Shown here one piece after another: positions 11,094-38,907 of a stretch of DNA of 64,000 nt. The DNA is taken from IMG/VR virus record IMGVR_UViG_3300037104_000756, positions 34,163 through 98,162 of that record, one strand, 5' to 3'. Each line of letters begins with the position of its first letter. Positions within the stretch are counted from its first letter, which is position 1. The notes beneath the pieces were generated by a model. The model was not told where the DNA came from and searched no databases. It saw only the letters and a program-made list of their open reading frames with translations. Both the position numbers and the translations under genes were made by a program. Source of the DNA: a virus.

Positions 11094-12620
11094 ATGTCTA
11101 CACAGAATCCTATTTACTCAAACCAGAACTGGCGTCCGTTGAAAGTTCGCGACAGTTTCCAGTTTGTTCGCGGCAATATCTCAGGGTTTGCGCACACGGG
11201 TAGTGAATCAGGCACGTTGGGTGTTATCGGACCTAACAGCACTCCTGGCGCGCACCCTGACGTTCCGTTTGTGATCGGCGTCTACTCCGCTTATGGCGCA
11301 GCGGCACAGCCTGGAAATCTGCGGGCGGTTGACTCTGAACTTCTCTTTAATTATCCAGGGAGCACCTCAATTACGGTGAACCCGACAGGTATTGACGGCA
11401 CTCCCACAACGCCGAATACGGCATCCTCAAGTATCGTAGCCGTACGCGGCGCGATCACCATCGGCGGTATCTATACAGGCGCGACGGCAGGAACAGGTAC
11501 TGCGGTCGTAGACCCATCACGCACGACCCCCACAACTATCGTGGGCTCGTCCTATCTTTACGGGGTGCAGGGTAAGGTTGTGCTCAACGGCGGTCTCGCC
11601 AATACAGGAGGGAACGGCATCATCGTTACCGGACTGCAAGGGCAACTCGACATTTCACACACTACCGTCATTTCAAGTCCCCTGACCGCAGGCTGGTTTG
11701 ATATCGGCGCATCGGCATCGGCGGCTCTTATCGCTTCGTGGGTTCCAGGTTCTGCTACTGGACTTGACGCTCAACTTGGCGTGGCAGCAAAATATGGTAT
11801 CCTTGCCGCTGCGGGAATCACAAACACAGGCTCTACGGTAGTCGCTGCTCCTGCGGTTATTGGTTCTTTCCCAACTACAACGATTACGTTTGACGGCGGC
11901 ACCGCGACGGTGGACAACATTGACGCGGCGGCAGCCCAAGTGGCTGCGCACGCGGCTTACCTTCACTACTCTGGATTGGCGTTCACTTCTCTGGGCGGCG
12001 CTCTGGACCTATCCACCGCCTTCAGCGGGTCCAACATCGTCACTCCCGGGAACTACAGTTTCGGTGCGGCAACCTGCTCCTTGGGTCTCGTCCTGAACGG
12101 ACCTGGAACATACATCTTCAAGGGTTCTTCAACGATCAATTTGGCTTCTGGTCAGTCCATAACTTTTTCGGGTGGCGCAACGTTGGCTAACACCACTGTT
12201 ATTTGGTTGGTGGGGTCGTCCTTCACTTCCGTGGCGACTTCGAACATGGTCGGGACTATTCTTGCGGACACATCCATCACCCTCGAGGGCGGCACTCTTC
12301 AGGGGCGCGCGTTTGCGGGCGTCGTGACTAGCTCGGGAGCAGTTACTATCGCTGCCGCAAACAACGTGACGGTTTCTTTTAGTCCGCCGACACCCGCGAC
12401 AGGCGGACCGACATTTATCGACATCACCACGCTGTACAACACGACGGCTGCGGTTATCAACTCAGCCTTCCGTATTATCTCGAATTCGACCTTTCTCTTT
12501 GATCTGAGCAGCAACTCAGGCAGCCCATGGCTGACCACTGGAGTTTTGTCCAGTCAGACGAAGAAAATAGCTGTGAACGTAGACGGAGTGACATACTACA
12601 TTCCACTATACGCAGCCTAA
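11094..12620 (+). CDS. Virion structural protein with inserted DUF3494 (ice-binding-like) domain
   Basis: A 508-residue paralogue of the upstream protein. Residues 1-220 and 440-508 align with the short copy. Residues about 225-430 are an insertion with the DUF3494/ice-binding-protein layout: AAAGITNTG start, LGGALDLSTAF, ITPGNYSF-like VTPGNYSFGAA, LVLNGPGTYIFKG, IWLVGSSFTSVAT, VGTILADTSITLEGG and LQGRAFAG end. That domain is a three-sided beta-solenoid that binds ice or acts as an adhesin in bacteria. Here it would be displayed on the virion. This is the clearest domain-insertion event in the window. Confidence 0.8.
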   Translation: MSTQNPIYSNQNWRPLKVRDSFQFVRGNISGFAHTGSESGTLGVIGPNSTPGAHPDVPFVIGVYSAYGAAAQPGNLRAVDSELLFNYPGSTSITVNPTGIDGTPTTPNTASSSIVAVRGAITIGGIYTGATAGTGTAVVDPSRTTPTTIVGSSYLYGVQGKVVLNGGLANTGGNGIIVTGLQGQLDISHTTVISSPLTAGWFDIGASASAALIASWVPGSATGLDAQLGVAAKYGILAAAGITNTGSTVVAAPAVIGSFPTTTITFDGGTATVDNIDAAAAQVAAHAAYLHYSGLAFTSLGGALDLSTAFSGSNIVTPGNYSFGAATCSLGLVLNGPGTYIFKGSSTINLASGQSITFSGGATLANTTVIWLVGSSFTSVATSNMVGTILADTSITLEGGTLQGRAFAGVVTSSGAVTIAAANNVTVSFSPPTPATGGPTFIDITTLYNTTAAVINSAFRIISNSTFLFDLSSNSGSPWLTTGVLSSQTKKIAVNVDGVTYYIPLYAA

Positions 12621-32437: not shown

Positions 32438-33099
32438 AATTTCTCAAATGGTTTCTATTCTTGGTTCTACTTTTTCCTTGTGTCGTATCGGCGCAGGATA
32501 AGGCAACAAAAACACTCACTCTTGTGGTCAACGCAGGGGCAGTGTCCATCACGACGCCAACAATTCCTAACGGCATGGTGGGGCTGGTATACCAAACCAC
32601 TATCACCGTAACGGGAGGGTTGGCTCCGTACACATTTTCCGTGTCCTCTGGCACACTTCCAGCAGGGATGGCTATAGCGTCAGGCACTGGCGTTCTCTCT
32701 GGGACACCGATAACTGCAGGCACCAGCACTTTTACCGTGCAAGTTACGGATGCTGAAACTCCAGCGGTGATTGCTTCGCAGTCATACACGATCACCATTC
32801 TTGCGCAGTTGGCGATTACAACGAATAGTCTGCCAGCCGCCAACATTGGAGTCGGATATAGCGCTACGATCACGGCTTCGGGCGGCGTAGCACCATATAC
32901 ATTCGCGGTCACGACTGGGACACTGCCAGCGGGGCTTACGTTGAATTCTGTGACAGGTGTGATATCTGGGACACCGACAAGCGCGGGGTCGTTCACAATC
33001 ACCATCACGGTAACCGACTCGGCTAGCAACATAGCGATGTTGGATATCAAAACAACCATTGAGGTCGCGGCAGTCTTTGTGCTAGACTTCAACGCATGA
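32434..33099 (+). CDS. Exported protein with two putative Ig domains
   Basis: A 221-residue protein, GTG start overlapping the previous stop. Signal peptide FLKWFLFLVLLFPCVVSA. Two He_PIG repeats (about 42-125 and 130-215), each with G-APYTF and LPAGxxxxxxTGVxSGTP. Such domains often mediate surface binding. ATGA coupling to the next gene. Confidence 0.75.
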   Translation: MKFLKWFLFLVLLFPCVVSAQDKATKTLTLVVNAGAVSITTPTIPNGMVGLVYQTTITVTGGLAPYTFSVSSGTLPAGMAIASGTGVLSGTPITAGTSTFTVQVTDAETPAVIASQSYTITILAQLAITTNSLPAANIGVGYSATITASGGVAPYTFAVTTGTLPAGLTLNSVTGVISGTPTSAGSFTITITVTDSASNIAMLDIKTTIEVAAVFVLDFNA

Positions 33100-33443: not shown

Positions 33444-33472
33444 TTGACACTTAACGCAACATCGGGTAAAGT
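33444..33472 (+). promoter_or_regulatory. Sigma70-like promoter of tmRNA gene
   Basis: TTGACA (33444-33449), 17-base spacer, TAAAGT (33467-33472). Expected transcript start near 33479, ahead of the acceptor piece. Confidence 0.75.
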
Positions 33473-33478
33473 GCAGGA

Positions 33479-33889
33479 GTCGAGTTTAAGATCGACACGG
33501 TGGAGGCAGAAATCGTGCCCCAAAAGCTGGTCGTGCAGTTAACACGCGCTGAGCGAGTTCCGTGACGCGAATAGGACGGCGACCTTAAATTACGTTCGTA
33601 TAAAGCCTATGGCTTCTCAGAAAGACGAGGGTTCGACTCCCTCCGAGTCCACCCTGCCACACAGCACGGATGTTCCGACGCCCAAAGGGCTGACGATCTA
33701 ACCACTGTGTGGTACGGTGGGCTCGACTCGGTTTCGATTTTTGAGATAGTGGTGGGGCTACTTCGAACCGTCCTGACAACGACGTTAAAAGAGATCAAAC
33801 CAATAAATGCGATGCCTAAAAAGCTAGCACAGGTGGTTATGTTCGCGCAGCGCCCTGCGGCATTCGTGCCCCAGGCACTCGCGGCATAG
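33479..33889 (+). ncRNA. ssrA: Circularly permuted (two-piece) tmRNA
   Basis: Rescues stalled ribosomes and adds a degradation tag. Order in the gene is acceptor piece, intervening segment, coding piece. T-arm GAGGG-TTCGACT-CCCTC (33627-33643); 3' acceptor strand CGAGTCC (33644-33650) then ACC. Intervening segment 33654-33718, whose ends pair with each other. 5' acceptor strand GGGCTCG (33719-33725) pairs fully with the 3' strand, one wobble. P2: TTTTTGAGA (33738-33746) pairs with TCTCAGAAA (33615-33623). Tag frame probably starts at GCG 33809 (preceded by AATAAAT) and ends ...VPQALAA-stop (33887-33889), the typical ALAA degron. CCA is not fully encoded. The 5' part (33479-33614) is longer than usual acceptor RNAs and may hold pseudoknots. 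Confidence 0.88.
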
Positions 33890-33897
33890 TCGCCGGG

Positions 33898-33932
33898 GGA
33901 GGGAGCCCGAAAGGTTCTCTCCTTTCATTTTT
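33898..33932 (+). terminator. Rho-independent terminator of tmRNA
   Basis: GGAGGGAGCC (33898-33907), loop CGAAA, GGTTCTCTCC (33913-33922), ten pairs with two G-U, then TTTCATTTTT. It closes the tmRNA transcript. Confidence 0.85.
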
Positions 33933-36876: not shown

Positions 36877-38907
36877 ATGTCTCTAACACTAATCCAACTC
36901 GCGACGGATAACTTTACTCGCGCTGACGCTAACCCCATCAGTGGAAGCTGGGATACGGTAGGCGGCGCGGCAGCTTGGCAGATCAAAAGCAACATGGCGG
37001 AATCCACCGTCATCGGAATCAATGCAAATTTAAGCATCTCAACGGCTGTTGTTTGGCCTGCGGATCAGTACAGCGAAGTAACTGTTGGTGTTAGTCCTAT
37101 TAATACAGACTTGGGTGGACCTGCTGTTAGATTTGCTGCGGGGTCTAAAAATGGCTACATCTTATTCTATCAAGGTGGATCGGGACCGATCACTGTTCAA
37201 ACAGTTATTACTCCAGGTTCAGGAACAACCATCGCTTCTTCCGGCACACTGAATGTCTCTATTGGTGATGTGCTCCGATTGGTAGTAATTGGAAATCAGT
37301 TAAGTGCTTATCAGAATGGAGTAGAGATAATTGCTCCATTTACCGACAACACTTTTGCGACAGGTTCTCCGGGGCTCTCCTCCTATATACAAACTGGCAC
37401 CACAGGAAACATTCGATTCTCTTTGTGGTCTGGCGGTTCTGCCAGTATTACTCCTCCTCCTCCTTCACCCGCCAGCATCTCGCCAACGAGTGACGAGCAG
37501 GGGTTCACTGGCAATGTCACTGTAACGGGTACCGCATTTGATTCTTCTGGAACTTCGACGCTGTCATTTTCTGGCACAGACGTTACGGTTAATTCATACG
37601 GCACGCGCAACGCGACGACCATCACCGCCAGCATTACCATTACCAGCGGAGCGGCACTCACTGCGCGAGACGTGGTTATCACCAACGTAGATTCGCAGAC
37701 AGGAACCCTGGTTGCGGCATTTACGGTCACATCTGGTGCTCCGTCTCCAGCCAGCGTTTCTCCGACCAGTGCCGAACAAGGATACATAGGCAATATCACT
37801 ATTGCAGGAACGAATTTTAGCACAGGAACTCTGTCATTCAGTGGCACTGGAATTACAGTCAACTCATATTCGGTCCAGAATACGACGACCATCACCGCCA
37901 ACATTACGATTGCGAATAATGCAACATTATCTGCCCGAGATGTCGTCATCACGAACCTCGATACTCAGACAGGAACCTTGACGGCATCATTTACAGTAAC
38001 TAGCGGCGCACCATTACCTGCGAGCATTTCGCCAACGAGTGACGAGCAAGGTTTCACAGGGAATGTGGTTGTTACAGGTACCAACTTTGATTCAGGCGGA
38101 ACTTCAACTTTGTCGTTCAGTGGCGCAGGCGTTACGGTCAATTCATACGGCACGCGCAATACAACAAATCTGACCGCCAACATCACCATCGCACCCAGCG
38201 CCGCGTTAACAGCCCGAGATGTGATCGTCACCAATGTTGATACGCAAACAGGCACGCTAGCGGCTGCGTTCACAATTACCCCGTCCCCGGTCATTATCAG
38301 CGTGAGTCGGTTGTCTGGGTCGGTGGGCATGTCAATCACTATCACTGGGACCAGTTTCGGGGCAACCCAAGGAACCAGCACTGTCACATTCAACGGGGTT
38401 ACCGCAACGACGACTAGTTGGAGCAACACAAGCATAGTGGTGACCGTACCTGTTGGAGCGACCACGGGCAACATCGTGGTGCGTGTATCCGGTGTGGATA
38501 GTAATGGCTCACTCTTTACCATCACTATCCCAACACGGCCACCCGCGTTTATTCCGCTCCCTTTTAGCAAACGTCTAACCGCCTCGGCAGCGGTATTCGC
38601 GTGCATCGGCATCACGTCTCCACAAGGCGCGCCCAGGCTGACATCAAACGTGCCTATTCTCGTCGCGCTGCAATTGGAGTACAGCCAGTTAATCAACATT
38701 TACCCAGTGTTGATCCACCAGGACACAGCGAACAATCGGGCTGATTTGTATGCAGCCATCGCCAAGGCTACGACGACTGTGGAAAACTTAAATACAACCA
38801 TCGAGTCTATGATGGCGGTGGGCGACGCGGGATTTCAATTGCGGGACATGCAGATTGTTGTGGCCAACGCCTTGACCGCTCTCCACAATGTAGAGATCGA
38901 TGAGTGA
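36877..38907 (+). CDS. Fibre/adhesin with lectin-like head and tandem Ig repeats
   Basis: A 676-residue protein. Residues 1-185 form a jelly-roll/LamG-like domain (DNFTRADANPISGSWDTVGG). Three ~90-residue repeats follow (about 198-480), each beginning PASxSPTS-EQG and ending TQTGTLxAxFT, then one IPT/TIG domain (VIISVSRLSGSVGMSITITG). The C-terminal ~100 residues are helical and may trimerise or dock. No start-proximal ribosome site. A receptor-binding or adhesin role is likely. Confidence 0.7.
   Translation: MSLTLIQLATDNFTRADANPISGSWDTVGGAAAWQIKSNMAESTVIGINANLSISTAVVWPADQYSEVTVGVSPINTDLGGPAVRFAAGSKNGYILFYQGGSGPITVQTVITPGSGTTIASSGTLNVSIGDVLRLVVIGNQLSAYQNGVEIIAPFTDNTFATGSPGLSSYIQTGTTGNIRFSLWSGGSASITPPPPSPASISPTSDEQGFTGNVTVTGTAFDSSGTSTLSFSGTDVTVNSYGTRNATTITASITITSGAALTARDVVITNVDSQTGTLVAAFTVTSGAPSPASVSPTSAEQGYIGNITIAGTNFSTGTLSFSGTGITVNSYSVQNTTTITANITIANNATLSARDVVITNLDTQTGTLTASFTVTSGAPLPASISPTSDEQGFTGNVVVTGTNFDSGGTSTLSFSGAGVTVNSYGTRNTTNLTANITIAPSAALTARDVIVTNVDTQTGTLAAAFTITPSPVIISVSRLSGSVGMSITITGTSFGATQGTSTVTFNGVTATTTSWSNTSIVVTVPVGATTGNIVVRVSGVDSNGSLFTITIPTRPPAFIPLPFSKRLTASAAVFACIGITSPQGAPRLTSNVPILVALQLEYSQLINIYPVLIHQDTANNRADLYAAIAKATTTVENLNTTIESMMAVGDAGFQLRDMQIVVANALTALHNVEIDE

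Follow-up and report, generated by a model that had tools for sequence, protein, structure and literature searches.

A circularly permuted tmRNA gene with a long, clade-conserved tag in a tailed phage

We report a complete and, judging from its sequence, apparently functional ssrA (tmRNA) gene of circularly permuted form in a lytic-type tailed phage, at positions 33444-33930 on the plus strand of a 64,000-nucleotide stretch (hereafter the window) of the virus record IMGVR_UViG_3300037104_000756. The initial annotation had proposed such a two-piece-type gene, and both searches agree with it: ARAGORN returned one tmRNA gene in the window, in permuted form and with the tag AMPKKLAQVVMFAQRPAAFVPQALAA, and Rfam matched positions 33594-33889 to RF04321 (tmRNA_permuted, which merges the alpha, beta and cyano models) with 67.2 bits against a cut-off of 47 (E 9.1e-11). 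RF04321 was the sole RNA family above cut-off in the window and was also above cut-off in a search of the whole record. RF01850 (beta_tmRNA), the top scorer among the three subtype models that the initial annotation had named for a check, gave a full-length alignment in a narrow search (E 1.3e-15), but its 53.5 bits fall below its curated cut-off of 84, so that we call the gene "beta-like" on sequence grounds and do not file it as beta_tmRNA.

The order of the parts defines the permutation, the 3' acceptor strand and the T-arm lying upstream of the 5' acceptor strand with an intervening segment between them. Every part that the initial annotation had named and placed was located in the sequence at the position proposed, and the parts now recognized are as follows:

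33444..33472, plus strand: sigma-70-type promoter-like site TTGACA-17-TAAAGT, 10/12 consensus
33499..33506, plus strand: conserved leader element GGTGGAGG, found in 6/6 clade members
33594..33598, plus strand: 3' strand of the distal P2 helix, GTTCG (acceptor piece), pairing with CGAAC at 33764-33768
33615..33623, plus strand: 3' strand of the P2 helix, TCTCAGAAA, pairing with 33738-33746
33627..33643, plus strand: T-arm GAGGG-TTCGACT-CCCTC (sequence, RF04321 alignment, compensatory changes)
33644..33653, plus strand: acceptor 3' strand CGAGTCC (33644-33650), discriminator A and CC, with seven pairs to 33719-33725
33654..33718, plus strand: intervening segment of 65 nt, in the predicted fold a hairpin that extends the acceptor stem, its ends paired
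33719..33725, plus strand: acceptor 5' strand GGGCTCG, seven pairs including G3:U70 (sequence, RF04321, alignment)
33730..33737, plus strand: GGTTTCGA, conserved, in the tRNA-like domain (D-loop analogue; RF04321 alignment)
33738..33746, plus strand: 5' strand of the P2 helix, TTTTTGAGA (six-sequence alignment)
33764..33768, plus strand: 5' strand of the distal P2 helix, CGAAC (six-sequence alignment)
33769..33784, plus strand: CGTCCTGACAACGACG, the stem that opens the pseudoknot-1 region ahead of the tag (RF04321 alignment; near-invariant in the clade)
33809..33889, plus strand: tag frame AMPKKLAQVVMFAQRPAAFVPQALAA-stop with resume codon GCG (ARAGORN; homologous tags in relatives)
33895..33930, plus strand: intrinsic-terminator-like hairpin (33895-33925; 13 pairs, loop of 5) and T run

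The predicted fold is stabler than that of shuffled sequences (z-score -3.2) and bears out the paired ends proposed for the 65-nt intervening segment, which would be expected, by analogy with known two-piece tmRNAs, to be removed on processing. The acceptor contains both the G3:U70 wobble pair, which specifies alanine identity, and A73. CCA is encoded in part, as ACC with C as the next base, which implies that the terminal A must be added. Since GGTGGAGG occurs in the window gene and in all five relatives, the acceptor piece or the leader probably has a conserved upstream part, with GGTGGAGG probably within or beside a 5' extension of the acceptor piece. In three of the relatives (L355, L356 and L321), a long variable hairpin beginning at GGTTCC follows this element, and in L320 and L355 a TTGACA and a TANNNT separated by a spacer of 17-18 nt likewise lie upstream of the tmRNA.

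Further evidence comes from the relatives. A terminase search yielded seven related viral contigs (61-77% identity), three of which carry a permuted tmRNA gene, while the records of the remaining four are shorter or incomplete; two further contigs (L355 and L356) were found by a pattern drawn from the conserved pseudoknot-1 region. The window gene and those of the five related phage contigs, all distinct, make up a six-sequence alignment. Its stems (acceptor, T, P2, distal P2, intervening segment and pseudoknot 1) are paired in 94.5% of cells, and two-sided changes occur in 20 of 39 pairs, values that none of 500 shuffles reached; when the registers were slid by 1-3 columns, only 27-45% were paired. 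Compensatory changes are seen in the acceptor, T, P2 and distal P2 helices. A scripted run gave the same result, and the compensation of the pairings in homologues, a test set beforehand in the initial annotation, thus came out in favor of the gene. By stem, P2 has 95.8% of cells paired and two-sided change in six of eight counted pairs, one of which appears as UA, CG, GC and AU among the relatives; distal P2 has 100% of cells paired and two-sided change in two of five pairs; and the intervening-segment stem has 84-87% of cells paired in the relatives, with partial covariation support. The G3:U70 pair is invariant (6/6). These figures are to be read with the caution that the sequences are few and that it was the window sequence which supplied the structure, although the double changes in P2 do not depend on this. 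The same pairing of acceptor and P2 is moreover found across at least 121 viral sequences that differ widely in their letters. One member of the clade, L355, has an altered T-loop, and the GroEL frame on its contig has internal stops, which is why this sequence may be error-prone or decaying.

Such conservation bears on the idea that the gene is a relic of a host ssrA, taken up through imprecise prophage excision and since released from selection. Although integration into ssrA is common and pieces of it are known in prophages (PMC9004378), the gene described here is complete and has promoter-like and terminator-like sites of its own, its stems show compensatory changes across the clade, a KTSC-domain gene lies downstream of it in all six phages, and no PF00589 integrase was found in the 98-kb record; we therefore hold a relic to be very improbable. 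As for this downstream gene (PF13619; 33945-34175 in the window), it follows the tmRNA either directly or within about 0.7 kb in the five relatives. The idea that its product is a general tmRNA partner was rejected, the association being confined to this clade: elsewhere among the viral tmRNA loci listed, the gene was seen just once.

That the gene is encoded by a phage, as first proposed, is supported by its surroundings. The window sits within a record of 98,162 bases which, from its gene content, is a genuine tailed phage: outside the window lie genes for a terminase large subunit, an SU10-type portal, a major head protein, a DNA polymerase, a UvrD-like helicase, a primase and RecA, and inside it those for a ribonucleotide reductase and GroEL. 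The phage GroEL (53895-55625; phrog_5725, E 6.6e-117) shares 69-78% identity with those of the five related phages and about 40% with its best matches in the named-phage collection, and a protein with an ice-binding-like domain (PF11999, E 3.3e-15) is encoded at 11094-12620, beside the structural genes. IMG/VR contigs are computed from metagenomes, and bacterial contamination, or else a chance resemblance to tmRNA, might for this reason be suspected; yet the terminase, portal, head protein and replication genes stand on the same 98-kb contig, the same gene recurs in relatives found via their terminase, and the Rfam E-value (9e-11) speaks against chance, so that the clade evidence in practice refutes this reading, to which we give next to no credence.

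As for a host, the nearest named phage by terminase and head protein is Tunturiibacter phage Tunturi_3, whose own host belongs to the Acidobacteriota, but at no more than 23-28% identity. ARAGORN found no tmRNA in Tunturi_3 (L125); this phage has an annotated RF-1-domain release factor at 32469-32807, possibly an alternative ribosome-rescue protein. Forty genomes were sampled from the phylum to which a MAG labelled Acidobacteria belongs; they match the standard tmRNA model and the tags read from them have 8-10 aa, and a recent capture from an Acidobacteria-type host is hence not indicated. The GenBank host labels of the RecA and GroEL matches gave no host pointer, viral contigs yielded no relatives of the neighboring gene at 36877-38907 in a protein search, and megablast of positions 15000-39000 against named phages returned no match. 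Because almost all hosts have SmpB, a phage lacking it is not thereby disqualified from using a tmRNA; no SmpB gene was found in the phage contig or in its relative G006, and the host SmpB would presumably serve.

What is shown here is that the gene exists, how it is built, that it is conserved and that its tag is under selection; it is from known tmRNA biology that we infer its transcription, cleavage, charging, use of SmpB, tagging activity and benefit to the phage. Two-piece tmRNAs were reportedly characterized by Keiler and colleagues and by Sharkady and Williams. Their biology has been reviewed (PMC8012679). On this basis, we regard it as very probable that the gene yields a processed, alanine-charged and SmpB-delivered tagging tmRNA that adds ribosome rescue. 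A single precursor transcript would arise from the gene's own promoter; host tRNA-maturation enzymes would excise positions 33654-33718 and complete the CCA end, and the two resulting pieces, acceptor and coding, would stay joined via the P2 helices. Host alanyl-tRNA synthetase would then charge the tmRNA through G3:U70, and host SmpB would carry it to stalled ribosomes, where translation would resume at the GCG at 33809 and append a tag of 26 residues whose ALAA end would direct the tagged protein to host proteases (ClpXP-type). During infection, the phage would thereby gain extra ribosome-rescue capacity with a phage-specific tag; the initial annotation had suggested that such an RNA could free ribosomes or bypass the ssrA of the host. 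Counting against this proposal are the anomalies of L355, the RF01850 score below cut-off and the origin of the record from an uncultured virus.

Contrary to the initial annotation, which held known phage tmRNAs to be one-piece, two-piece phage tmRNAs are already known. Phage Melnitz, published in 2022, carries one, and ARAGORN suggested 53 two-piece forms among 133 unique phage tmRNA structures, mostly from aquatic phages (PMC9004378); an update of the tmRNA database lists 79 phage sequences (PMC11915505). The RefSeq crAss-like phage cr273_1 (NC_055904.1) has an annotated ssrA that ARAGORN calls permuted, and a pattern scan of IMG/VR gave at least 120 contigs; in addition to the window, ARAGORN reads a permuted tmRNA in 119 of those listed. 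What the present gene adds is a well-supported clade with clear covariation. Like the Methylophilales phage Melnitz, its carrier encodes a complete permuted ssrA and has no integrase found; but the ssrA of Melnitz was reported as related to that of Alphaproteobacteria and placed with a glutamine riboswitch, whereas here the nearest subtype model is betaproteobacterial, the Rfam search of the window shows no riboswitch, and the long tag is of another family than that of Melnitz. With RF04321 members the gene shares the part order, tRNA-like domain, acceptor, T-arm, P2 and resume region, although its score (67 bits) is lower than the roughly 115-165 bits of the bacterial members sampled, and its tag is long: sampled bacterial RF01850 tags have 10 aa against 26 here. 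Phage cr273_1, permuted as well, is unrelated and has a 15-residue tag.

It is this long conserved tag that is the main unusual feature of the gene. ARAGORN recovered the frame first proposed for it, which opens at GCG 33809 and runs for 26 residues, AMPKKLAQVVMF being a segment of it, to an ALAA end. Together with the tags of the other five phages (VKQTLAKVIEFVVPVRSRELAMAA, AKRKLAQVIAFPGVFAVASARPQALAA, AKTKMAKVLAFPAMRTVAPARQFALAA, AKTKLAQVVMFASRTNVASARRLAMAA and AKNKLAQVVMFAKRAVVVPARQYAMAA), AMPKKLAQVVMFAQRPAAFVPQALAA forms a clade-specific family of 24-27 aa. Within the shared K-L-A-Q-V motif, the first, second and third codon positions differ by 0.275, 0.133 and 0.517, respectively, between sequence pairs, which implies a protein-coding sequence; the tag, as read from these differences, is under amino-acid constraint and, if so selected, is by inference translated. 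A different role has been proposed for a related kind of RNA, the tRNA-like-domain-only RNA of mycobacteriophage DS6A, thought to inhibit tmRNA (PMC4131195, PMC11915505), and the gene could by the same token specify a decoy, charged or bound to SmpB, that mainly inhibits the tmRNA of the host. Here, however, the gene has its tag frame, its resume region and its stop, and a tag whose amino acids are conserved in six phages would be needless for a pure decoy, which we accordingly rate as improbable, if somewhat less so than a relic. A tagging tmRNA is thus the reading that we retain.

The length of the tag had also been described as exceeding most, and long it is, although tags of 8-35 aa were already on record (PMC8012679). 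Among the matches listed, viral permuted tags fall into two length groups, of 10-15 and 23-33 residues, the latter comprising 24 of the 76 distinct viral tags in several unrelated-looking families. Long viral families (IMG/VR loci L004-L123 and L242-L311) include ANADTFDFSAMSFTGNTV...ALAA, A[KN]AS[TK]GEVTVSGK...LAV and ANASTFEYFTVEGFTADNGLVAA. The bacterial permuted tags sampled (26 alphaproteobacterial and 6 betaproteobacterial) have 10-13 residues, none of the 32 exceeding 13 and none reaching 23-33. A Fisher test of long tags in viruses against bacteria gives p of about 8e-5, with related sequences that are not independent; because the sample is, in addition, skewed towards what the search pattern picks up and towards the matches listed, and because bacterial contigs may be among the viral ones with short tags, the viral excess of long tags is a lead and not a result. 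With regard to this lead, we tentatively raise the possibility, which we think rather doubtful, that phages have evolved a tag class of their own, long (23-33 aa), clade-specific, selected for its amino acids, without the AND-type start of the sampled bacterial tags and with an ALAA-like end, which would mark rescued proteins for a fate other than that of host-tagged ones. If this were true, phage-tagged proteins could meet another adaptor, a different protease preference or a distinct function, and the gene thereby brings forward a little-studied question, namely the reason for the long conserved tags of many viral permuted tmRNAs, given that the sampled bacterial ones encode 10-13 residues.
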